A stretch of 39,075 nucleotides of DNA from Anaerolineae bacterium (GTDB lineage: Bacteria > Chloroflexota > Anaerolineae > B4-G1): positions 1 through 39,075 of the forward strand of contig JADHWW010000109.1 in the NCBI GenBank assembly GCA_016783285.1, given 5' to 3'. Position 1 is the stretch's first letter. Each line of letters opens with the position of its first letter. Shown one piece after another: positions 24,131 to 35,275 of the stretch. The notes under the pieces were generated by a model. It had not been told where the DNA came from and did no database searches. It saw only the letters and a list, made by a program, of their open reading frames with translations. The translations under genes and the position numbers were made by a program.

Positions 24131-24397
24131 CTACACGAGGTCCTTGCCCGGCCCGCTTTCGAAGAAGTCGGCATTCTTCTGGATGTCGTCAGCATATTCA
24201 TCAGGCACATCATCCTCGTGGAAGATTGCCTCGTTGGGGCACTCGGCCTCGCAGACCGCGCATTCGATACATGTTTCGGGGTCAATGTAGTAGGTGGGCC
24301 ATTCCGGATCATCGTCTACAAAGTGGATCGAATCTGTGGGACAGACGTCCACACACAGCCCGGCGCGCTCACACTTGCTGGTGATCACAGATGCCAT
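24131..24397 (-). CDS. ferredoxin with two iron-sulfur cluster motifs
   Basis: An 88-residue ferredoxin. The first motif is CERAGLCVDVCP (Cys9, Cys15, Cys19, with a five-residue gap between the first two), a spacing found in ferredoxins whose first cluster is 3Fe-4S or an atypical 4Fe-4S. The second is the regular CIECAVCEAECP. The acidic C-terminal tail (EDDVPDEYADDIQKNADFFESGPGKD) is common to this subfamily. It probably transfers electrons in central metabolism. Start ATG 24397 follows AGGGAAGAG. It has its own promoter (24488-24515) and an 84-base leader. Confidence 0.9.
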   Translation of the reverse strand: MASVITSKCERAGLCVDVCPTDSIHFVDDDPEWPTYYIDPETCIECAVCEAECPNEAIFHEDDVPDEYADDIQKNADFFESGPGKDLV

Positions 24398-24442
24398 TTC
24401 TCTTCCCTTGCCTCCGTTTGGCTATAGTGTTTCGACCGCGCT

Positions 24443-24469
24443 AACCACCTCGCATCGGTGAGGGTGGTT
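24443..24469 (-). other. leader hairpin of the ferredoxin transcript
   Basis: AACCACC (24443-24449) pairs with GGTGGTT (24463-24469). An alternative inner pairing CACC/GGTG exists. It falls in the 5' leader between the predicted start site (about 24481) and the ferredoxin ATG (24397). Confidence 0.35.
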
Positions 24470-24487
24470 TCTCAAGAGACAATTTCC

Positions 24488-24515
24488 ATTGTAACAAGAT
24501 TTGAATCTTTGTCAA
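24488..24515 (-). promoter_or_regulatory. ferredoxin promoter with an operator-like palindrome in the spacer
   Basis: On the minus strand a perfect TTGACA (24515-24510), a 16-base spacer and TACAAT (24493-24488). The spacer contains the perfect palindrome AAGATTCAAATCTT (24496-24509), which fills nearly all of it. A dimeric regulator bound there would block polymerase, or in the MerR manner realign the two boxes. Confidence 0.7.
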
Positions 24516-24586
24516 GGTGCTCGCCGCGCCCCAAAGCCCGGCCAACAGGAGAACGATGATGCCCCGCTCCTCTCGCAAGAAAAGAT

Positions 24587-24614
24587 TTGCACAAAACCCC
24601 GATACGAGTATACT
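24587..24614 (+). promoter_or_regulatory. promoter of the hsdM leader RNA
   Basis: TTGCAC (24587-24592), a 16-base spacer and TATACT (24609-24614). The start site would be near 24621, directly ahead of the structured leader. Confidence 0.6.
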
Positions 24615-24620
24615 AACAAC

Positions 24621-24737
24621 GCAAAAATCTCGCGGCTTGGCACAGCCCGAGGCTGTGGCCAAGGCGGTGGGTTGCCCTGGCAGACGATATGGTAGCACAT
24701 CGCCCGCCCACCGTCAAGGTGCAGCGGGCTTTTCTTT
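24621..24737 (+). ncRNA. structured leader or small RNA ahead of hsdM
   Basis: A segment of about 117 nt between a promoter and an intrinsic terminator. Hairpin 1 (24636-24663) has 12 bp with one bulged G and the loop CGA. A long-range helix CGGTGGG/CCCACCG (24665-24671 with 24707-24713) encloses small helices around GCC-CT-GGC (24674-24681) and CGAT/ATCG (24685-24702). The 3' arm of that helix overlaps the 5' arm of the terminator, so the two cannot form together. This is the layout of a riboswitch or attenuator. I do not recognise any known riboswitch consensus, the SRP RNA motif, or 6S RNA. It could instead be a free small RNA. hsdM starts 48 bases after the terminator. Confidence 0.5.
24702..24737 (+). 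terminator. intrinsic terminator between leader RNA and hsdM
   Basis: GCCCGC (24702-24707) pairs with GCGGGC (24724-24729). Inside it CACC pairs with GGTG around GTCAA. TTTTCTTT follows at 24730-24737. Both stem and T-run are good. Confidence 0.7.
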
Positions 24738-24785
24738 GTGCTCTAACACGATCCTGACAACACTACACACTAACAAGGACTGTGC

Positions 24786-26411
24786 ATGTCGGCCAACAAC
24801 ACCGAGATCGAAAAACGCCTCTGGGACGCCGCCGACGAGATGCGCGCCAACTCGCGGCTCAAACCGTCCGAGTATTCCGTCCCTGTGCTGGGACTGATCT
24901 TCCTGCGCTACGCTGACCACAAGTTCGCTCACGCCGGGCGGGAGATTGAGGCGGAACGGGCCGCGCGTGCCGGAGGTCGCCGCCAGCGCCCCGTCACCAA
25001 GGATGACTACCGCGCTCGGGGTGTTCTCTACCTGCCCGACGAGGCCCGCTTCCAGCGGTTGGTCGAACTCCCGGAGGGGGAGAATATCGGCTCTCGCCTC
25101 AACGACGCGATGAAGGGTATCGAGGCGGAGAACCCGGACCTCAAGGATGTGCTCCCCAAGACCTACAACCGCCTGGGTAATGTTACCCTGGTCTCCCTGC
25201 TCAAGACCTTCAACCCCATCCAGATGGATCTGGAGGGCGATGTCTTTGGCAAGATCTACGAGTACTTCCTGGGCAAGTTCGCTAGAGCCGAGGGACAGCG
25301 GGGCGGCGAGTTCTTCACCCCCACTTCCATTGTCCGTCTCATCGTCGAGATCATCGAGCCCTACCACGGGCGTATCCTCGATCCGGCCAGTGGGTCGGGC
25401 GGCATGTTCGTGCAGAGCGCCCGCTTCGTCCAGCGTCACCAGCAGAACCCTTCCGACGAGATCAGTCTCTATGGCCAGGAGCGGGTTGCCGAGACGGTGC
25501 GCTTGTGCAAGATGAACCTGGCGGTTCACGGCCTCGCCGGCGACGTCCGCCAGGGCAACACCTACTACGAGGACATCCACCGCAGCCTGGGCAAGTTCGA
25601 CTTCGTGATGGCCAACCCGCCCTTCAACGTCAACCGGGTGGACAAGGACCGCCTCAAGGACGATCCCCGTTTCACCTTCGTCCTGCCCCGCGTGGACAAC
25701 GCCAATTACCTGTGGATCCAGATCTTCTACAGTGCGCTGAACGAGACGGGCCGGGCGGGTTTCGTGATGGCGAACTCCGCCGCCGATGCCCGCGGCTCGG
25801 AACTTGAGATCCGCAGGCAGTTGATTCGGACCGGCGCGGTGGACGTGATGGTCGCGGTGGGATCGAACTTCTTCTACACCGTGACGCTCCCCTGTACGCT
25901 CTGGTTCCTCGACCGGGGCAAGATGGCCCCCTCTCCTGGTAGGAGAGGGCGGGGGGAGAGGTCTGACCAGGTGCTCTTTATAGATGCCCGGCGGATCTAC
26001 ACCCAGATAGACCGTGCCCACCGCGAGTTCACCCCAGCGCAGATTGAGTTCCTGGCCAACATCGTGCGGCTCTACCGGGGCCGGGAGCCGGAGACGACGC
26101 AGGGCAGCGCCGACCTGCTGCGGGAGCACTTCCCCGACGGCATCTACCAGAATGTGCCGGGGCTCTGCAAGGTGGCGACGCGGGGGAAGATCGAGGCCCA
26201 GGGCTGGAGCCTCAACCCGGGACGCTACGTGGGTGTGGCCGAGCGGGAGGAAGACGCGGACTTCGACTTCACCGGGCGACTGATGGAACTGCACGAGGAG
26301 TTGGAGGTGCTCAACGCCGAGGCGCACGGGTTGGAAGAGCGCATCGCGGAGAACGTAGCGCAGTTGTTGGATCTGACTTCCACCCAGGAACGACTGGCAG
26401 ACTTTCTATGA
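24786..26411 (+). CDS. hsdM: type I restriction-modification methyltransferase subunit HsdM
   Basis: HsdM methylates adenine (N6) within the recognition sequence, in a complex with HsdS. The N-terminal HsdM helical domain ([37 protein letters not shown]) covers about residues 1-150. The N6-adenine methylase core follows: the SAM loop [16 protein letters not shown] (about residue 200) and the catalytic NPPF in [14 protein letters not shown] (about 275). The C-terminus is a coiled coil ([28 protein letters not shown]). The length, 541, is normal. A 15-residue insert ([15 protein letters not shown], about 380-395) comes from a palindromic element. A duplicate of its 3' end lies ahead of hsdS. 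Confidence 0.96.
25929..25949. repeat. in-frame palindrome inside hsdM
   Basis: CCCTCTCCT and AGGAGAGGG (25929-25937, 25941-25949) pair perfectly around GGT. It lies in frame and codes for PSPGRRG. Beyond it, the protein resumes the conserved [10 protein letters not shown] stretch. Confidence 0.7.
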
Positions 26412-26438: not shown

Positions 26439-26993
26439 ATGGCAACCAAAGTCCCGATTTACCAGATCAAAGTCACCTTGAAGGGCAGCAAGCCGCCCAT
26501 CTGGCGGCGTATTCAGGTTCCCTGCAACATCACCCTGGGGGAACTGCACCACATTCTCCAGGCGGTGATGGGATGGTGGGACTATCACCTCCACCAATTC
26601 ATCGTCGGGCAGACCTATTACAGCGTACCCGACCCGGACTACGATGACTTCATGGATATGTGCGATGAGAGCGAGGTGCGGCTGAACCAGATTGCCGATG
26701 AGGGATTCAAGTTCGTCTACGAGTATGACTTCGGCGATAGTTGGGAGCACGTCCTGTTGGTGGAAAAGGTCCTGCCGCCGGAGCCGGGCCAGCATTACCC
26801 GGTCTGCGTCAAGGGCAAGCGCGCCCGCCCGCCGGAGGACGTGGGCGGCGTCTGGGGCTACGAGGGATTCCTGGAGGCCATCCGGGACCCCGACCACGCC
26901 GAGCACGACGAGTACCTGGAGTGGGTCGGCGGGGAGTTCGACCCGGAGGCGTTTGATCTGGATGAGATCAACGCGGCGCTGCGCGACTTGTGA
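26439..26993 (+). CDS. plasmid pRiA4b ORF-3-like protein
   Basis: A 184-residue member of the pRiA4b ORF-3 family (PF07929-type). Seen: IYQIKVTLKGSKPPIWRRIQVP, LGELHHILQAVMGWWDYHLHQF, FVYEYDFGDSWEHVLLVEKVLPPE, CVKGKRARPPEDVGGVWGYEGFLEAIRDPDHAEHDEYLEWVG and the FDLDEIN end. The family is widespread and often carried on plasmids or transposons; its biochemical role is not established. It sits between hsdM and hsdS, 27 bases after hsdM, where type I systems normally have nothing. I think it arrived with the DNA that split the operon. The GAGGAGAAAAC before the ATG is a good ribosome-binding site. Confidence 0.88.
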   Translation: MATKVPIYQIKVTLKGSKPPIWRRIQVPCNITLGELHHILQAVMGWWDYHLHQFIVGQTYYSVPDPDYDDFMDMCDESEVRLNQIADEGFKFVYEYDFGDSWEHVLLVEKVLPPEPGQHYPVCVKGKRARPPEDVGGVWGYEGFLEAIRDPDHAEHDEYLEWVGGEFDPEAFDLDEINAALRDL

Positions 26994-27022
26994 TGAGAGG
27001 TGCCCTGATACCCGGCGTTGAA

Positions 27023-27285
27023 GACTCCGCGCTGAAGGAACGAAGCCCTCCTTCGGCTTCGGCAGTCTCAGGACATGCCTTCGGGGGCTAGCGCTACAAC
27101 GTTAGTTTCCTTGCTGCTCGCGTCGGATCGCCAGATCCGATGCTTGACCAGGCCAGTCTAGGGCCATCGCGGATCTGACGATCCGGTTTGAGCGTATGAA
27201 GACAACGCTTCTGTGTAAGGTCGCGTTGTAGTACCAGAATGGTAGCCCGTCAGGGCTTTGTTCTCTCAGCGGTGGGCTTCAGCCC
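27023..27285. repeat. cluster of REP-like hairpins between the pRiA4b-like gene and hsdS
   Basis: Five small perfect hairpins in 260 bases. CGAAGCC/GGCTTCG is at 27041-27061. TCGGATC/GATCCGA (27123-27140) and CGGATC/GATCCG (27170-27185) share the same arms. AGCCC/GGGCT (27244-27257) is preceded by an overlapping GTAG at 27242. GGGCT/AGCCC is at 27274-27285 in the opposite sense. The GTAG-plus-palindrome and inverted-pair layout is that of REP elements mobilised by REP-associated transposases. No transposase gene is in the window, and no gene is seen in this stretch. Confidence 0.55.
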
Positions 27286-27293
27286 GGCGCGTA

Positions 27294-27365
27294 GGTGCTC
27301 AACGCCGAGGTGCACGAGTTGGAGCAATGAATCTCGGAGAACGTGTCATCACTTTTACAGGGGTT

Positions 27366-27369
<4 letters not shown>
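27294..27369 (+). pseudogene. decayed duplicate of the hsdM 3' end
   Basis: Read from 27295, the frame gives VLNAEVHELEQ, a stop (27328-27330), then ISENVSSLLQGL and a stop (27367-27369). This aligns without gaps to the HsdM C-terminus [23 protein letters not shown] (from about 26307), and 18 bases are identical. The last stop overlaps the hsdS ATG as ATGA, the usual hsdM-hsdS junction. Confidence 0.8.
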
Positions 27370-28633
<1,264 letters not shown>

Positions 28634-28637
<4 letters not shown>

Positions 28638-29344
28638 CCCAGGTGTTTAATGTGTACTGTGACGAAAGCTGTCACATGGAACACGACCACCAGCAAGTTA
28701 TGGTCCTGGGAGCTGTGTGGTGTCCACTAGATAAAGCCCGGGAGATTGCAGTTCGCATTCGCGAGATTAAAACCAAGCACGGATTGCCACCAGGATTTGA
28801 GATCAAGTGGGTGAAGGTCTCGCCTGCCAAGGTTCAATTCTACCTGGACATCATGGACTATTTCTTCGATGACGATGATCTTCATTTTCGAGCCTTGATT
28901 GTGCCCGACAAGTCCAGGCTTCGACATCAGGATTTTGGGCAGACCCATGATGACTGGTATTACAAAGTGTACTTCGACATGCTGAAGATCATTCTTGATC
29001 CGAACGCACGATACAGAATTTACCTGGACATCAAAGACACGCGCGGTGGAACCAAAATCGCCAGGTTGCACGAAGTGCTCTGTAACAACATGTACGACTT
29101 CTCCCGGGAAATCATCGAAAGAGTTCAGTTGGTTCGATCCCACGAGATCGAAATCTTACAACTCGCTGACCTGCTAACTGGCACAGTTTCATACGTGAAT
29201 CGTGATCTTTTCAGTAGTGCGGCCAAAAGATGTCTTGTTGATAGGATGCGTGAGCGATCAGGGTACATGCTTACTCACACCACATTGCTTCGGGAAAACA
29301 AGGTTAACCTATTCCGCTGGCACGCAACGGAGGCACAGATATGA
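28634..29344 (+). CDS. DUF3800 protein in the restriction operon
   Basis: A 236-residue DUF3800 protein. The first strand is FNVYCDESCHMEHDHQQVMVLGAVWCP, with the YxDES motif. Later strands are LHFRALIVPDKSRL and RYRIYLDIKDTRGG, and a conserved helix lies in EIEILQLADLLTGTVSYV. The fold is thought to be RNase H-like, with acidic residues (Asp9, Asp in YLDIKD, Asp in QLADLL) that could bind metal, so a nuclease role is plausible but unproven. The start overlaps the hsdS stop by ATGA, and its own stop overlaps the next gene by ATGA. Visibly lower GC than hsdM and hsdR points to separate acquisition. Confidence 0.88.
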
Positions 29345-29835
29345 TAACTGTACCTGGTTGGCTTCCACCACTCGTGCTGTTCCAAAACTATAGTGGGAAT
29401 TGGGAACGCTATGTCGAGGCCTTGTACGGGTATTTCAGGAGAGATTTCATTGACGATTCCCCTTCATTCCGGGGAACTCGATTGGCACTGAAGCGCCACC
29501 CAATGGAACACGGGAAGGAAGCGACATTTTGGCACCTGATTTCAGAGGGCAAAGATGAGCGAGTGCCAGATCTCAGGAGATGCGAGCGGATTCGTTGGCC
29601 GCGCCCGATCATCGAACATGCCGATGGTTCGGTCATCAAGGTCTGGAAGAACAAAAGAAAGCACGAGAAACGAATTTGTATTTGGTTTGAGGATGTCGAA
29701 TATCTGGTTATTCTGGCCATACGCAAGGGGTATATCTTGCTGTGGACTGCATATCCTGTTACAAGGTTGCATCGCAAGAGGAAACTGCAGAAAGAGTACG
29801 AGGCTTATATCAAGGCGAATGCCGCTCCGGTTTAG
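29341..29835 (+). CDS. unknown basic protein coupled to DUF3800; possible BECR-fold RNase
   Basis: A 164-residue basic protein. The order of conserved-looking elements is FWHLISEG, DLRRCERIRWPRPIIE, KRICIWFEDVEYLVILAIRKGYILLWTAYPV, then a basic helix TRLHRKRKLQKEYEAYIKAN. A short beta sheet with His, Arg and Thr/Tyr followed by a basic helix recalls BECR-type (Barnase/EndoU/ColicinE5/RelE) nucleases found in phage and toxin contexts. This is a weak, motif-level guess. Its start overlaps the DUF3800 stop (ATGA), so the two are probably made together. GC is low, as in DUF3800. It is followed by an AT-rich stretch and a MITE-like element. Confidence 0.7.
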   Translation: MITVPGWLPPLVLFQNYSGNWERYVEALYGYFRRDFIDDSPSFRGTRLALKRHPMEHGKEATFWHLISEGKDERVPDLRRCERIRWPRPIIEHADGSVIKVWKNKRKHEKRICIWFEDVEYLVILAIRKGYILLWTAYPVTRLHRKRKLQKEYEAYIKANAAPV

Positions 29836-29929
29836 GGAACGGCATCGTTACTCCTTCTACTCCTGGTAGATGAGCTAATTATATTATAAACGATCAAGAT
29901 GTTTTTGTCAATACTTTTTCAAGTTTTAT

Positions 29930-30084
29930 CGTAACTGCTCAGGCTCTTCCCAAAACAGGCACAAATAGCACACGGATACACACGGATGAAACGGGTTCTC
30001 ACAGATTTTTTATCTTTATCTGCGCACATCCGTATGATCCGTGTTGATCCGTGTTCCATTTTCATGACTGGCTGAGCAGTTACG
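29930..30084. mobile_element. 155-bp MITE-like element with 13-bp terminal inverted repeats
   Basis: CGTAACTGCTCAG (29930-29942) and its exact complement CTGAGCAGTTACG (30072-30084) bound the element. GTTTTAT stands on both outer sides (29923-29929 and 30084-30090), so a 6-7 bp target duplication is likely. Inside, ACACGGAT words (29970-29987) face inverted ATCCGTGTT words (30027-30055), giving a long imperfect hairpin. No coding capacity. It lies in the 297-base gap between the small basic protein and hsdR, where nothing else is seen except AT-rich sequence. Confidence 0.75.
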
Positions 30085-30132
30085 TTTTATCCAAATCACC
30101 GCTTCTCGACCGAAACAGCGAGGATTTGACGC

Positions 30133-33100
30133 ATGACTCACTTAGGCGCTGACGCCGAAGAAGCCCTGGAAAACGCCACGCTGGCCCTCTTCGCCGAACT
30201 GGGCTGGGAGACTGTCAACGGCTACCACGAGGTCACCAGCGAAACGCCGGACGCCGGGACGGGCGGTCCCTACCTCAGCCGGGCGGCGCGTTACGAAGTC
30301 GTCCTGCGCCCGCGCCTGGAGGCCGCCCTGACCAGGCTCAACCCCACACTGCCCTCTGAGGCCCTCCATCAGGCCGTCGTCGAACTCACCCGCGACCGGG
30401 GGGCGATGACCCTGGTCCACGCCAACCGGGAGGTCTACGCCCTGCTCAAGAACGGCGTCCCCGTCACCTACCGGGACGCGGGCGGCGAGGAGCGGGTCGA
30501 GCGGGTCGCGGTGATTGGCTGGAACGACCCTGCCGACAACGACTTCCTGATGGTGCAGCAGTTCTGGGTCACCGGCGACATCTACACCCGCCGCGCCGAC
30601 CTGGTCGGCTTCGTCAACGGCCTGCCGCTGCTCTTCGGCGAACTCAAGGCCCACCACCGGCGGGTCGAGGACGCCTATCGCCGAAACCTCAGCGACTACA
30701 AGGACACTATCCCCCATCTCCTCTGGTACACTGGCTTCATCATCCTCTCCAACGGCAGCGACAGTCGCATCGGCACCGTCACCTCCGAATGGGAGCACTT
30801 CAGCCCGTGGAAGAAGATCAACAGCGAGGGGGAGCAAGGTCTCATCTCCCTGGAAACGCTGGTGCGGGGCACCTGCGAACCGGCCCGCTTCCTCGATATC
30901 GTCGAGAATTTCGTCCTTCACAAGGAGGAGCGGGGCGGCCTGATCAAGATCGTGGCCAAGAACCACCAGTACCTGGGTGTCGAAAGCGGTATCGAAGCGG
31001 TGCGGCAGATCCGGGAAAGACGGGGGCGGTTAGGCGTCTTCTGGCACACCCAGGGGTCGGGCAAGAGCTTCTCGATGGTCTTCTTCTCCCAGAAGATCCT
31101 GCGCAAACTGCCCGGCAACTGGACCTTCGTCATCGTCACCGACCGTCTTGACCTGGATGACCAAATCTACAAGACCTTCGCCCGCTGCGGGGCCGTCGTC
31201 GAACCGGAAGAGCGCGTCCGGGCGCAGAGCGGCGAGCACCTCCAGCAACTGTTGCGGGAGGATCACCGCTACGTCTTCACACTGATCCACAAGTTCCACA
31301 CCCGGGGCGGCGCGTGTTATCCCAGGCTCTCCGACCGGGACGACGTCATCGTCATGACTGACGAGGCGCACCGCAGCCAGTATGACGTCCTGGCGATGAA
31401 CATGCGCTACGCGCTGCCCAACGCCGCCTTCATCGGCTTTACCGCCACGCCCCTGATGGCCGGCGAGGAGAAGACGCGAGAGGTCTTCGGCGACTACGTC
31501 AGCATCTACGATTTCAAACAATCCGCCGACGACCACTCCACCGTCCGCCTCTACTACGAGAACCGCATCCCGGAACTGGAGCTGACCAACGAGCAACTCG
31601 ACGAGGACATGGATCGGTTGCTGGAGGCGGCAGAACTGGACGGGACCCAGGAGGGGATGCTGGCGCGGGAGTTCGCCCGCGAGTACCATCTCATCACCCG
31701 CGAAGATCGGCTGGAGAGGGTCGCCGAGGACGTCGTGGACCACTTCGCCAACCGGGGCTACCTGGGCAAGGCGATGGTCGTCTGCATTGATAAACTCACC
31801 ACCGTGCGGACGTACGACAAGGTCCAGAAGTACTGGCAGCGTGCCCTCGACAGGCTGCGGGCCAGACTCGCCACCGCCGCGTCGGAAGAACGGGAAGCCC
31901 TGGCGGCGTTAAAAGAGAAAATCGCCTTTATGGAAGGGACCGACATGGCGGTCGTCATCTCCCAGGAACAGGGGGAAGTCCAGAAGTTCAGGGAGCACGG
32001 CCTGGACATCAGGCCCCACCGCAGACGGATGATGACCGAGGACCTGGACGAGAAGTTCAAGCACCCCGATGATCCCTTCCGATTGGTCTTCGTCTGCGCG
32101 ATGTGGCGCACCGGCTTCGACGTGCCCTCTTGTTCCACCATCTACCTGGACCGGCCGATGCGCAACCACACCCTGATGCAGACTATCGCCCGGGCCAACC
32201 GTGTCTTCGGGGAGAAGGTCAACGGCCTGATTGTGGATTACGTCGGCATCTTCCGTGACCTGCAGCGGGCGCTGGCCATCTACGGCGCCGGGCCGGGCGG
32301 CGAACTCCGGCCGGGCGAGCAGCCGGTCGAGGACAAAGACGGTCTGGTCGAGCGGTTGCGCGAGGCCATCGAGGGGACCACCGTCTTCTGCGCCGAGCGC
32401 GGCATGGACGTCGAACCGATCCTGGACAGCGCGGGCTTCCAGCGCATCGCCCTGATGGACGATGCCGTGGAGCGGATCATCGTCAACGACGATCTCAAGA
32501 CCAGGTACCTGGCTCTGGCTGCCGACGTGGACCGGCTCTTCAAGGCCATCCTGCCCGATACGCGGGCCGGGGAATTTGCTCCCAGGCGCAAGGTCTTTCT
32601 CGTCCTGGCGGAGAAGATCCGCGCCCTGACCCTGCGAGCGGACATCTCCGAGGTGATGGGCGCGGTCGAGGAATTGCTGGACGAGTCCGTCTCCGCCAGG
32701 GGCTACGTCATCCGCGAACCTGGGATGTCCTATGATCTGAGCGAGATTGATTTCGAGGCGCTCAAGCAGCAGTTTGCGCAGGGACGCAAGCGCACCGAGG
32801 CCGAGAGGCTGCGAGGCACGATCAACGCCAGGCTGCACCGCTTAGTGCGGTTGAATCGGAACCGGATGAGCCTCCTGGAGGAGTTCCAGCGGATGATCGC
32901 TGAGTACAACGCCGGCTCCCGCAACGTCGAGGTCTTCTTCAATGACCTGGTTGATCTTGCCCAGCGGCTCAACGAAGAAGAGCAGCGCCACATCGCCGAG
33001 AACCTCACCGAGGCGGGACTCGCCGTCTTCGACATCCTCACCCGTCCCGGCCCCGACCTGACCGAGAAGGAGAAACGCGAGGCCAAGCGTATCGCCCGCG

Positions 33101-33318
33101 AGCTCCTGACCACCCTCTCCAGGGAGAAACTCGTGCTCGACTGGCGCAAGCGCCAGCAATCCCGCGCGGCCGTGCGGGTCGCCATCGAGGACACAATCTG
33201 GCGGCTTCCCGAGTGCTACACCGACGAGATGTGCCGGCAGAAGAGTGCCCAGGTCTACCAGCACGTCTACGACAACTACTGGGGGGCCGGGCAGAGTATT
33301 TATGCAATGACCGAGTAG
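30133..33318 (+). CDS. hsdR: type I restriction endonuclease subunit HsdR
   Basis: HsdR translocates and cuts DNA for the type I complex. The N-terminal nuclease domain (about 40-260) shows the PD-(D/E)xK site in RRADLVGFVNGLPLLFGELKAH. The SF2 motor has Walker A HTQGSGKSFSMVFF (about residue 303), the DEAH box MTDEAHRSQYD, motif III GFTATPL and, in the second RecA domain, VFVCAMWRTGFDVPSCSTIYLDRPM with MQTIARANRVF. A helical C-terminal domain for HsdM contact follows, ending YDNYWGAGQSIYAMTE. The length, 1061, is normal and no lesion is seen, so the system is probably active. ATG 30133 has AGGA 9 bases upstream. The MITE separates it from the upstream genes, so it may be transcribed on its own. 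Confidence 0.96.
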   Translation: MTHLGADAEEALENATLALFAELGWETVNGYHEVTSETPDAGTGGPYLSRAARYEVVLRPRLEAALTRLNPTLPSEALHQAVVELTRDRGAMTLVHANREVYALLKNGVPVTYRDAGGEERVERVAVIGWNDPADNDFLMVQQFWVTGDIYTRRADLVGFVNGLPLLFGELKAHHRRVEDAYRRNLSDYKDTIPHLLWYTGFIILSNGSDSRIGTVTSEWEHFSPWKKINSEGEQGLISLETLVRGTCEPARFLDIVENFVLHKEERGGLIKIVAKNHQYLGVESGIEAVRQIRERRGRLGVFWHTQGSGKSFSMVFFSQKILRKLPGNWTFVIVTDRLDLDDQIYKTFARCGAVVEPEERVRAQSGEHLQQLLREDHRYVFTLIHKFHTRGGACYPRLSDRDDVIVMTDEAHRSQYDVLAMNMRYALPNAAFIGFTATPLMAGEEKTREVFGDYVSIYDFKQSADDHSTVRLYYENRIPELELTNEQLDEDMDRLLEAAELDGTQEGMLAREFAREYHLITREDRLERVAEDVVDHFANRGYLGKAMVVCIDKLTTVRTYDKVQKYWQRALDRLRARLATAASEEREALAALKEKIAFMEGTDMAVVISQEQGEVQKFREHGLDIRPHRRRMMTEDLDEKFKHPDDPFRLVFVCAMWRTGFDVPSCSTIYLDRPMRNHTLMQTIARANRVFGEKVNGLIVDYVGIFRDLQRALAIYGAGPGGELRPGEQPVEDKDGLVERLREAIEGTTVFCAERGMDVEPILDSAGFQRIALMDDAVERIIVNDDLKTRYLALAADVDRLFKAILPDTRAGEFAPRRKVFLVLAEKIRALTLRADISEVMGAVEELLDESVSARGYVIREPGMSYDLSEIDFEALKQQFAQGRKRTEAERLRGTINARLHRLVRLNRNRMSLLEEFQRMIAEYNAGSRNVEVFFNDLVDLAQRLNEEEQRHIAENLTEAGLAVFDILTRPGPDLTEKEKREAKRIARELLTTLSREKLVLDWRKRQQSRAAVRVAIEDTIWRLPECYTDEMCRQKSAQVYQHVYDNYWGAGQSIYAMTE

Positions 33319-33490
33319 AAAGCTGCTGTGCAGAATGGCAACATTGAGCCAGTCCGGCGCTCGGGACTATGGAATGCCAATCACATCGCGGAGGATTACG
33401 ACCCTGCCTTCTTGGACGTGCTTCAGCGATGTAGTCCGGACCCGCCGCCCCCCGCGCCGAGCCGGGTGTAGAGGCACGGTCACCGCACCC
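33319..33490. other. gap between hsdR and the convergent lipoprotein gene
   Basis: No supported gene. On the plus strand a frame reads through to a stop at about 33473 with the protein-like stretch RRSGLWNANHIAEDYDPAFLDVLQRC before a proline run. I cannot assign it. It may be the tail of a lost gene. No clear terminator hairpin with a T-run is visible. Confidence 0.3.
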
Positions 33491-35275
33491 CTACTCCGGC
33501 ATGGCCATCCCCAGGCGCAGAGACCGGTATGGCACACCAGGCCAGACCTCCAAAGCCGGGGATGCATCGTCAAACCAGACGGCGTAGAGGGCATCGAACT
33601 GCCCTTCCGCCTTCATCGCCAGCAGCGTCAGGTTGACCAGGTCGCGGAAGGCAGAATCGCCCGGCGGAAGCCCCAGAGCCAGCGGCACCTGGGTCAGCCG
33701 CAGCGCAAGCACGCCCAGGCCCGGCGTGGCGTAGGCTGGCCCCAGCAGGTCGGCCCGCTCACCGGCCACCGCTACCACCTGCCCCTCCTGCAGCGACGCG
33801 ATAGCCGCCTCCAGTGCCGGTCGCGGCAGCACCGTCAGCGAAACGGATGTCTCCTGCGCCGCTGCCAGCAGCACCTCCCGGCTCCCGCTCCCCGCGACCA
33901 CCGCCACCTGCTGCCCGCTCAGGCTGGCCATGTCGGTGATCAGCGTTCCGGCGCGCACCATCAAACCCTCACCCGCCACGTAGGTCGTCAGGCCGAAGTC
34001 CAGCTCCAACTCGGCAGCATGGGTGCGGATCAGCCCACCCACCAGCAAGTCAGCCTGGCCAGTGCGCAGCATCTCCTTCCCCGTCTCAGCCGCCGTAGGG
34101 ATGAAATCCACCGCCGTACCATCACCCAACCAATGTTCAGCCATCTGCCGCACCAGGCTAACCTCGTAGCCGGCCGGCGCACCAGTCTCGTCCACGTAGG
34201 CAAACGGGGCACGGCCGGGCACCAGCGCCACGGCCAGCCGGCCCCGCGACTGGATGGCAGCGATGGTATCGGGCACATTTATCACGACAGGACCATCCGC
34301 CAGGTCGGGAATCTCCTCACCAGGCCAATGCTCCACGGCAGGCGGCGGCTCCGGCGCGAACCAGCGGGCATACAGTTCCGCGTAGGTACCGTCGCCGACC
34401 ATCTCCTGAAAGGTCAGGTTGACCAGATCGGCAAAGAAAGGGTCGTTCTGCGGAAAAGCGAGCGCCACCGGAATCGCCGTGTACTGCCCGACGATAGCCG
34501 TCTCGGGGAGCATGCGCTTACCCCAGAGAAGCCGGTGACGCATGTCGGCCACGGCGCCCACATCACCCCGGCCCAGCGCTTCCACCGCCGCATCGAAGCG
34601 ATCATAAGTCTGGAGCGTGAGCGTGAACGGTACCACCGCGCGCAGCGCGTCTGCGGCCTCTCCCCACGCCACTACTCCCACCGGGCGTCCCTCCAGGCTC
34701 AGCGGGCTATTGATGGCAGCCGTGTCGGCAGCGCGGACGAGCAGCGCCTGGCCGTCTATGAAGTACGGCAGACTAAAGTCAACTCCCGCCTCCCTATCCT
34801 GAGTGTGGGCGAGGGCCGCGATGACGATGTCCACATCTCTCGCCTCCAGGTGCTCGACGGCGGTGTCGGAGCGCACCTGGCGGAACCGCACCGCCTGGGC
34901 ATCCCCCAGCCAGCGATGAGCCAATTCTCGCCCCAGGTCCACGCCAAAACCGGCCACCTCCCCCTCGTCAGTGACGTAGCCAAAGGGCTGGAGGTCGTAA
35001 AGCACGCCGACGAGCAGGAAACCCCGGGCGCGGATGCGGGCCCCGGTCGTCGCATTGTCCGGCAGGGGGGTCGGCGTAGGCAGCGGGGGCGTTGCACTGG
35101 GGAGAGGTGACCAGACGCCCTCTGTCGTCTCCCCGTTGGTGCAGGCGGTCAGCAGCAGGGCGATTAGCAGCAGCCAGAGAGAAAAACGGTGAGCATGACA
35201 GACACGTAACCGACCAACGCACGTCCGGAGATGTTGGTTATCCCAGTTCATTCCACTCAGCGACTGTGTTTTCAC
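33491..35275 (-). CDS. lipoprotein with two tandem solute-binding (SBP_bac_3-type) domains
   Basis: A 594-residue exported lipoprotein: the signal FSLWLLLIALLLTAC ends in a lipobox cysteine (about residue 45), followed by a Pro/Thr linker (PLPSATPPLPTPTPLP). Domain 1 (about 80-315: RARGFLLVGVLYDLQPFGYVTDEGEVAGFGVDLGREL to FFADLVNLTFQEMV) and domain 2 (about 335-575: GRLAVALVPGRAPFAYVDETGAPAGYEVSLVRQM to FRDLVNLTLLAMK) are both of the amino-acid-binding family 3 type. Two domains in one chain are unusual for a simple ABC binding protein and more like a sensor input. No permease is adjacent. The start is uncertain between GTG 35275 and ATG 35251. Confidence 0.87.
   Translation of the reverse strand: MKTQSLSGMNWDNQHLRTCVGRLRVCHAHRFSLWLLLIALLLTACTNGETTEGVWSPLPSATPPLPTPTPLPDNATTGARIRARGFLLVGVLYDLQPFGYVTDEGEVAGFGVDLGRELAHRWLGDAQAVRFRQVRSDTAVEHLEARDVDIVIAALAHTQDREAGVDFSLPYFIDGQALLVRAADTAAINSPLSLEGRPVGVVAWGEAADALRAVVPFTLTLQTYDRFDAAVEALGRGDVGAVADMRHRLLWGKRMLPETAIVGQYTAIPVALAFPQNDPFFADLVNLTFQEMVGDGTYAELYARWFAPEPPPAVEHWPGEEIPDLADGPVVINVPDTIAAIQSRGRLAVALVPGRAPFAYVDETGAPAGYEVSLVRQMAEHWLGDGTAVDFIPTAAETGKEMLRTGQADLLVGGLIRTHAAELELDFGLTTYVAGEGLMVRAGTLITDMASLSGQQVAVVAGSGSREVLLAAAQETSVSLTVLPRPALEAAIASLQEGQVVAVAGERADLLGPAYATPGLGVLALRLTQVPLALGLPPGDSAFRDLVNLTLLAMKAEGQFDALYAVWFDDASPALEVWPGVPYRSLRLGMAMPE

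Follow-up and report, generated by a model that had tools for sequence, protein, structure and literature searches.

The window (the whole stretch of 39,075 nucleotides that was analysed, from an Anaerolineae bacterium, contig JADHWW010000109.1) carries a type I restriction island, in which hsdM is followed by hsdS and hsdR and which also contains a PRiA4_ORF3 gene and two genes matching PDC-M04 (Table 1). The HsdM protein is 82% identical to an Anaerolineales protein, and Obg from the window is 71% identical to that of genome G005 (an Anaerolineae bin); both place the window near Anaerolineae (Chloroflexota). Directly after hsdR lies an ORF of 591 aa (33335-35110) for which neither Pfam nor PADLOC gave a match. 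On the other side, upstream of the element studied here, a very good promoter (TTGACA-16-TACAAT, 24515-24488, minus strand) faces a ferredoxin gene (24134-24400, minus strand).

Table 1. Features of the element and of the genes behind it; positions refer to the window unless another locus (L) is named.
Feature	Position	Strand	Basis or remark
P+, predicted promoter, TTTGCA-17-TATACT	24586-24614	+	predicted start ~24621
Sense leader RNA, predicted P+ start through T+	24621-24737	+	R1 match 24621-24734, 108.2 bits
Predicted antisense RNA, ~60 nt (P2 hairpin, short spacer, P1 terminator)	start ~24681-24683, leftward to ~24622	-	
A run on the plus strand, U tract of the minus-strand terminator	24623-24627	-	sequence
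P1, terminator hairpin of the predicted antisense RNA	24629-24651	-	covariation, helices 1 and 2
P2, 5′ hairpin of the predicted antisense RNA, loop 24666-24673	24658-24681	-	wobble asymmetry; antiterminator on the plus strand
Antiterminator segment, can pair with 24707-24715	24663-24671	+	sequence; cognate complementarity
P-, predicted promoter: -35 TTGACG (24717-24712), extended -10 TG + TACCAT (24694-24689), spacer 17	24689-24717	-	predicted
T+, intrinsic terminator: hairpin 24702-24729, T tract 24730-24737; -35 box of P- in the loop	24702-24737	+	sequence, fold, covariation of helix 4
hsdM, type I methyltransferase, 541 aa, presumed regulated gene	24786-26411	+	PF02384 8e-83, HsdM_N 9.2e-22, PADLOC MTase_I 2e-223
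PRiA4_ORF3	26439-26993	+	inside the hsdM-hsdS-hsdR island
hsdS	27258-28637	+	restriction island
PDC-M04A and PDC-M04B matches (PADLOC), DUF3800 gene and second gene	28634-29835	+	inside the restriction island
hsdR	30133-33318	+	restriction island; rest of the island after hsdM, 26439-33318
Cassettes adjoining tRNA genes	L171 3118-3236, L173, L174, L176, L182, L183, L185, L192 532-647, L193, L219 1062-1177		

The preliminary description of this DNA had proposed a transcriptional switch ahead of hsdM, made of a promoter (24587-24614), an intrinsic terminator (24702-24737), and a long-range helix (24665-24671 with 24707-24713) that excludes the terminator, with hsdM beginning 48 bases further on. 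All of these parts are present: the promoter reads TTTGCA-17-TATACT and begins at 24586, the terminator is readable in the sequence and formed in the fold (a pattern-based terminator scan of the window did not report this hairpin), the helix can be extended to 24663-24671 with 24707-24715 including one G.U pair, it and the terminator exclude each other, and the distance to hsdM is correct. What had been overlooked are a promoter on the minus strand and the A run to the left of P1, which is a U tract when read on the minus strand. Taken singly, the leader of the window is only modestly unusual in its folding stability (z −2.0; 7 of 200 shuffles equally stable), so that the window alone is indecisive and the alignment of its family has to decide.

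Relatives of the leader were detected by blastn in 396 genomes of the class (71-75% identity over at least 100 bases), and those looked at adjoin genes other than hsdM. The covariance model R1 was built from six sequences, five of them from the searched genomes, and the window is one of the six. With up to nine candidates scored per genome, it gave 112 matches in 63 of the 396 genomes (E ≤ 0.01), with up to six in one genome. A second model (R2, 78 members) matched in 26 of 400 genomes of the phylum (E ≤ 0.001) and, among 48 genomes of other phyla, in one, by a single marginal match (26.5 bits) that is followed by a tyrosine integrase. Judged by these matches, the leader is a member of a dispersed Chloroflexota family of ∼130 bases. 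One locus (L129, 700-802) has P2 and the terminator but no P1; it may be decayed or a different form. Comparison with Rfam covariance models, which the preliminary description had recommended, yielded no match at the element, neither in the window nor in the 20 member loci scanned. The leader had no match in plasmids by distant blastn, an exact 28-base pattern had none in viral contigs, and no description of such a family was found among the matches listed from the open-access literature. A comparison with related genomes upstream of hsdM had been recommended as well. When positions 24400-24800 were compared by blastn with 80 loci of hsdM relatives, the only match covered 21 bases (E 0.40) and lay elsewhere than in the leader of hsdM; a search with R2 of five hsdM loci from Chloroflexota, together with 20 control stretches, likewise produced a single match (L001, 14.8 bits, E 0.084). 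As relatives of hsdM do not share the leader, the element appears to be tied to the cassette, not to hsdM.

In the alignment of the 78 members, every one of the 27 base pairs showed changes on both sides, with a covariation score of 0.559 versus at most 0.076 for slid partners; this alignment was fitted to the model, and the absolute covariation values therefore lean towards it, whereas the strand test described below is far less dependent on it. The absence of compensatory changes, named beforehand as an outcome that would count against a switch, is thus not what was found. For P1 (helices 1 and 2), 10 of 10 pairs had changed on both sides, and 96.8% and 95.5% of the cells were paired. The conserved hairpins P1 and P2 straddle a 12-bp hairpin (24636-24663) given in the preliminary description.

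A G.U pair is tolerated on the strand that folds and reads as A.C when the opposite strand is written. Counted in plus-strand letters over the 78 members, P2 contained 6 G.U and 87 A.C combinations, T+ contained 36 and 7, and P1 contained 11 and 20, the latter amounting to a weak strand bias. After thinning to 45 representatives, the respective numbers were 3/52 (P2), 19/3 (T+), and 8/10 (P1), and in 41 members outside the alignment they were 6/39, 18/3, and 10/13. Because of this asymmetry, P2 probably folds in RNA made from the minus strand and the right-hand terminator in RNA made from the plus strand. Calculated fold energies gave a more stable P2 on the minus strand in 59 of 78 members and a more stable T+ on the plus strand in 48 of 68; for P1 the minus strand was better in 40 of 78, its strand being undecided by energy and wobble. 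In 57 of 78 members, the sense-strand P2 has one or more A.C mismatches. Both terminators are followed by the expected tract: across the 78 members the eight bases to the left of P1 hold a mean of 5.3 A, which reads as U in minus-strand RNA, and the eight to the right of T+ hold a mean of 4.7 T.

The minus strand also carries a candidate promoter. Read as its reverse complement, the TNTAGCACA-like stretch to the right of P2 gives an extended -10 box, and a conserved CAA in the terminator loop likewise gives the TTG of a -35 box. Minus-strand promoters scoring at least 8 were predicted in 68 of the 78 members, versus 2.4 expected anywhere from shuffles; 55 of these 68 had a spacer of 17-18 and the TG extension, and in 67 (67 of the 78 members) the -10 box lay in the same register within the element. 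A plus-strand promoter to the left of P1, at the same threshold, was predicted in 60 of 78 members, versus 10.2 from shuffles. Among the 41 other members, only 17 had the minus promoter (2.7 expected; 15 in register) and 23 the plus promoter (5.9 expected). Transcription from the minus promoter is predicted to start at the foot of P2, and in the window the resulting RNA (24683 to 24622) folds into two hairpins (−27.8 kcal/mol), the second of which is followed by the U tract. As this RNA would end approximately where the leader begins, it would cover nearly the first 60 bases of the latter. The minus-strand unit is in turn flanked by the plus promoter and the plus terminator. The free-standing small RNA that the preliminary description had kept as a fallback is therefore right insofar as a small RNA is predicted, but it would come from the opposite strand. 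With regard to a small toxic peptide, which a type I toxin-antitoxin system would encode in its sense RNA, ORFs of at least 15 codons starting with ATG inside the element were present in 28 of 78 and 15 of 41 members, so that no such ORF is common to the family.

The P2 segment of the leader complements the 5′ arm of T+. When combinations within a cassette were compared with those between cassettes, this pairing reached z −8.4 with 59 representatives and −7.1 with 41, a value that none of 5,000 permutations attained in either set. An over-strict length filter, which 21 of the 78 members pass, had given z −4.0 on 20 members; the repeat with 59 and 41 representatives thus brought a stronger signal, but less flat controls. 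The other members gave z −3.1 (28 of 41 used). Controls with 59 and 41 representatives were z −2.2 and −2.9 for P2 with the reversed arm, −1.9 and −2.1 for P1 with the arm, and −2.4 and −1.5 for P2 with the 3′ arm; in the other members, the reversed arm gave −1.7 and the 3′ arm −2.4. The two arms of the terminator, as a positive control, gave −15.9 and −14.3. As the controls are not flat, part of the pairing signal probably reflects shared ancestry or composition. The 12-bp hairpin mentioned above does exist in the window, but as a cognate pairing it was rejected, the relatives giving z values in the wrong direction (+2.0 and +1.6). Compared with the antiterminated fold, the terminated fold was more stable, the difference being 9.4 kcal/mol in the window and 10.8 on average. 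Since the terminated state is favored energetically, any read-through would have to rest on the order of folding or on weak termination. For chimeric attenuators based on pT181, interior loops in the sense hairpin have been reported as required, according to the accessible part of that study (PMC4878617), and the A.C mismatch of the sense-strand P2 would fit this requirement.

The gene to the right of the element lies on the plus strand in 63 of 75 members by one gene caller, a count that admitted ORFs open at the edge of the element and thereby favors the plus strand, and in 66 of 75 when start codons were demanded; on the left side, plus-strand genes numbered 36 of 65 and, with start codons required, 33 of 54. 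In the other members, the plus-strand neighbors were 34 of 39 (right) and 14 of 23 (left). For the 78 elements, 68 right-hand genes were listed, all of them on the plus strand with a start no more than 700 bases away, and with exact duplicates counted once. As 32 of these 68 begin within 60 nt of the element, there is little room for another promoter.

After removal of 16 partial, duplicate, or doubtful ORFs, 52 of the 68 genes were retained, and 38 of these were individually scanned in Pfam. A defense-type domain was present in 17 of the 38 genes scanned singly (from the 68 listed). Besides HsdM of the window, the first genes of this type encode an SNF2 helicase (L124), DUF499 proteins (L170, L225), a C5 methylase (L177), a PLD-SNF2 protein with a restriction domain (L180), a CHAT-TPR protein with a NACHT-like stretch (L186), and a TIR protein (L189), furthermore HSDR_N (L190), BglI (L208), AlbA_2 (L210), a UPF0020 methylase (L213), Cas10/Csm1 (L214), an N6/N4 methylase (L218), a D12 methylase (L220), and an N6 methylase (L227); ResIII/TnsA (L127) matched below the curated cut-offs. 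We take proteins with AlbA_2, CHAT, TIR, DUF4007, or KAP domains to serve often in defense. Among the 39 genes of the other members, 10 were scanned and seven were of defense type: HSDR_N-Eco57I (L316), DUF499 (L300), DUF4007 (L299), HsdM (L302), KAP-FGE (L311), and Eco57I methylases (L312, L313). Overall, at least 24 of 107 right-hand genes are thus of defense type, a floor and not an unbiased rate, because the first batches and the 10 of 39 were chosen by eye. PADLOC matched 203 families in the 52 right-hand proteins (best 8.3e-240 among the matches listed) and 42 families in 52 arbitrary genes (best 6.5e-39 among the matches listed), a contrast that is only indicative because the families are not independent and each list holds its best 25. 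The control genes were 52 of 130 from 20 arbitrary stretches, and as their tallies comprise the best 25 of 42 PADLOC and the best 25 of 106 Pfam families, no rate per control gene is claimed. Housekeeping-like genes also occur to the right of the element (GatB, IscS, HrcA, and a peroxiredoxin, by eye; RNase H, L212, by scan). The first genes are thus of many kinds, with no evident common pathway.

The loops are the most variable part of the element: their entropy is 1.7 bits, compared with 1.0 for the stems and 1.6 for the spacer that separates P2 from the -10 box. Five of the six matched cassettes of genome G146 have an identical linker/-10 segment and stems that are 0-10% diverged, and carry five different loop pairs. 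Cassettes L207, L213, L218, L224, and L228 of this genome are near-identical in mostly unrelated flanks, the antisense loops being their main difference. Conversely, L175/L184 and L190/L194, from different genomes, have kept both loops with a diverged linker/-10 segment, and the same gene lies behind both L175 and L184. Speaking against private loops, within single genomes both loops are common to L181/L187, and the P2 loop is common to L169/L184, L216/L223, and L207/L224. The pattern as a whole resembles private recognition by an antisense RNA, although some of it could have arisen because unpaired bases drift neutrally.

In ten members, a tRNA gene lies 85-352 bases to the right of the cassette, in either orientation, an arrangement that offers no clear candidate for the regulated gene and counts against an attenuator there (Table 1). 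By eye, several of these cassettes have short ACAGCATC or TGACAACA repeats between themselves and the tRNA gene. L119 and L127 have a tRNA-Gln on their left side. Tyrosine integrases lie near several cassettes (by eye; by Pfam for L192). Because tRNA genes and integrases adjoin it, the cassette may travel on integrative elements and islands, and the tRNA-adjoining copies may face outward from integrative elements, in the direction of the attachment site.

Comparative sequence supports the hairpins, the folding strands of P2 and T+, the two promoters and two terminators, the P2-T+ complementarity, and the orientation of the genes behind. We propose, with a probability of about two in three, that the element is a compact antisense-controlled transcription attenuator of the pT181 type, existing as a dispersed cassette with variable loops that often precedes genes for restriction, methylation, or other defense-type functions. 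P+ would start the leader RNA at ∼24621, and P- would start an antisense RNA of ∼60 nt at ∼24682, which would run leftward through P2 and stop at the P1 terminator. If the antisense RNA is absent, the P2 segment of the nascent leader would be free to pair with the 5′ arm of T+, and transcription would read through into hsdM; if it is bound, the P2 segment would be occupied, T+ would form, and transcription would stop 48 bases before hsdM. In the window, hsdM, as the first gene of a type I system with PDC-M04 matches, is presumed to be under this control. We infer that the cell makes both RNAs, that expression falls when the antisense RNA is present, and that the loops are where pairing begins. 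In use, each copy would probably be a sensor of its own dosage, and on entry into a cell devoid of the antisense RNA an island would probably obtain an early burst of expression.

Several other explanations were weighed. It is unlikely that polymerases from P+ and P- act as a two-state switch by colliding, the antisense pairing being idle: the predicted starts do face each other at a distance of ∼60 bases, and a promoter convergence loop of this kind, which includes an antisense RNA of 88 nt, has been described for EcoRI (PMC3874152), but such interference needs neither covarying minus-strand hairpins nor variable loops nor cognate P2-T+ complementarity. Distinctly improbable is a minus-strand RNA that acts in trans as a small RNA, with the plus transcript as its mere decoy. 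Its own conserved promoter and terminator would suit such a gene, but its loops are its most variable part, and the element precedes a plus-strand gene (66 of 75 and 34 of 39), often too near for a second promoter. Even less credence is given to a passive mobile cassette, a promoter with a leaky terminator that moves with islands without regulating anything; the near-identical G146 copies in mostly unrelated flanks and the adjoining tRNA genes and integrases agree with it, whereas the compensatory change in 27 of 27 pairs and the conservation of the promoters across a diverged family speak against it. The small-molecule riboswitch of the preliminary description, for which a terminator with an alternative helix had spoken, is very improbable, as 57 of 78 members have mismatches in P2 when it is read as a plus-strand helix, this hairpin folding on the opposite strand instead, a conserved aptamer core on the mRNA strand is lacking, the loop is hypervariable, the antisense promoter explains the conservation between P2 and the terminator, Rfam gave no match, and the genes behind have no evident common pathway; its attenuator part (promoter, terminator, competing helix, and a gene 48 bases on) stands.

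The proposed antisense-controlled attenuator has its closest counterparts in pT181 repC and pIP501 repR, which, in the sections available of the two sources, likewise have a leader terminator before the gene, an antisense RNA to the 5′ part of the leader, and the antiterminator in the hairpin that binds the antisense RNA (PMC4878617; PMC8383071). For the element, an antisense promoter within the leader, a structured antisense RNA, a terminator before the start codon, and antiterminator complementarity are all predicted. In contrast to the plasmid systems, the cassette fits its sense and antisense units into ∼130 bp, the terminator loop housing the -35 box of the antisense promoter, and it occurs in many dispersed copies before unrelated genes, with no replication gene in the cases examined. 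As its targets are hsdM and many other kinds of gene and not a plasmid replication gene, the element was not filed in the families of plasmid attenuators. Antisense-induced termination of non-replication genes is reported for RnaG/icsA of Shigella and RNAbeta of Vibrio anguillarum; both are, however, described as single loci, and the portion of the review at hand mentions no dispersed homologous family (PMC8383071). Antisense RNA also controls restriction-modification systems in EcoRI (Rna0, 88 nt) and, by reverse promoters, Eco29kI, but these are of type II, have their reverse promoters inside the endonuclease-coding region, and come with no mention of an attenuator terminator in the excerpt concerned (PMC3874152). 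Control of the EcoRI Rna0 type was rejected for the window, as P- (24717-24689) precedes hsdM and does not lie inside a coding region. Likewise, the defense plasmid pSYSA of Synechocystis has an abundant antisense RNA, asRNA1, which is, however, antisense to coding sequence and serves ColE1-like copy control with RNase E, as stated in the accessible passages (PMC9978351). The Chloroflexi-1 RNA motif is a structured RNA reported from the same phylum, again by the available part of its description (PMC2864571), but Rfam gave no match to the element in the window or in the 20 loci scanned.

More tentatively, and with the odds rather against it, mobile defense islands of Chloroflexota may carry a standard, self-addressed antisense/attenuator cassette of ∼130 bp before restriction and methylase genes, cas10 of type III CRISPR, and genes for SNF2 helicases, DUF499, CHAT, and TIR proteins. 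Private loops would then allow several non-crossing switches per genome, and the cassette would sense the dosage of its island and permit a burst of methylase or defense gene expression on entry, before the antisense RNA builds up. At stake is how transferred defense genes stay quiet yet ready. On the proposed reading, a leader with the appearance of a riboswitch can turn out to be the gene of an antisense RNA seen from the wrong strand, and the counts of G.U and A.C in an alignment reveal the folding strand. Engineers report difficulty in making orthogonal attenuators from pT181, as far as the consulted part of the study goes (PMC4878617). If the proposed reading is true, the family would supply naturally occurring antisense attenuators that differ in their loops, and one reusable RNA switch would serve many unrelated systems in a single phylum.
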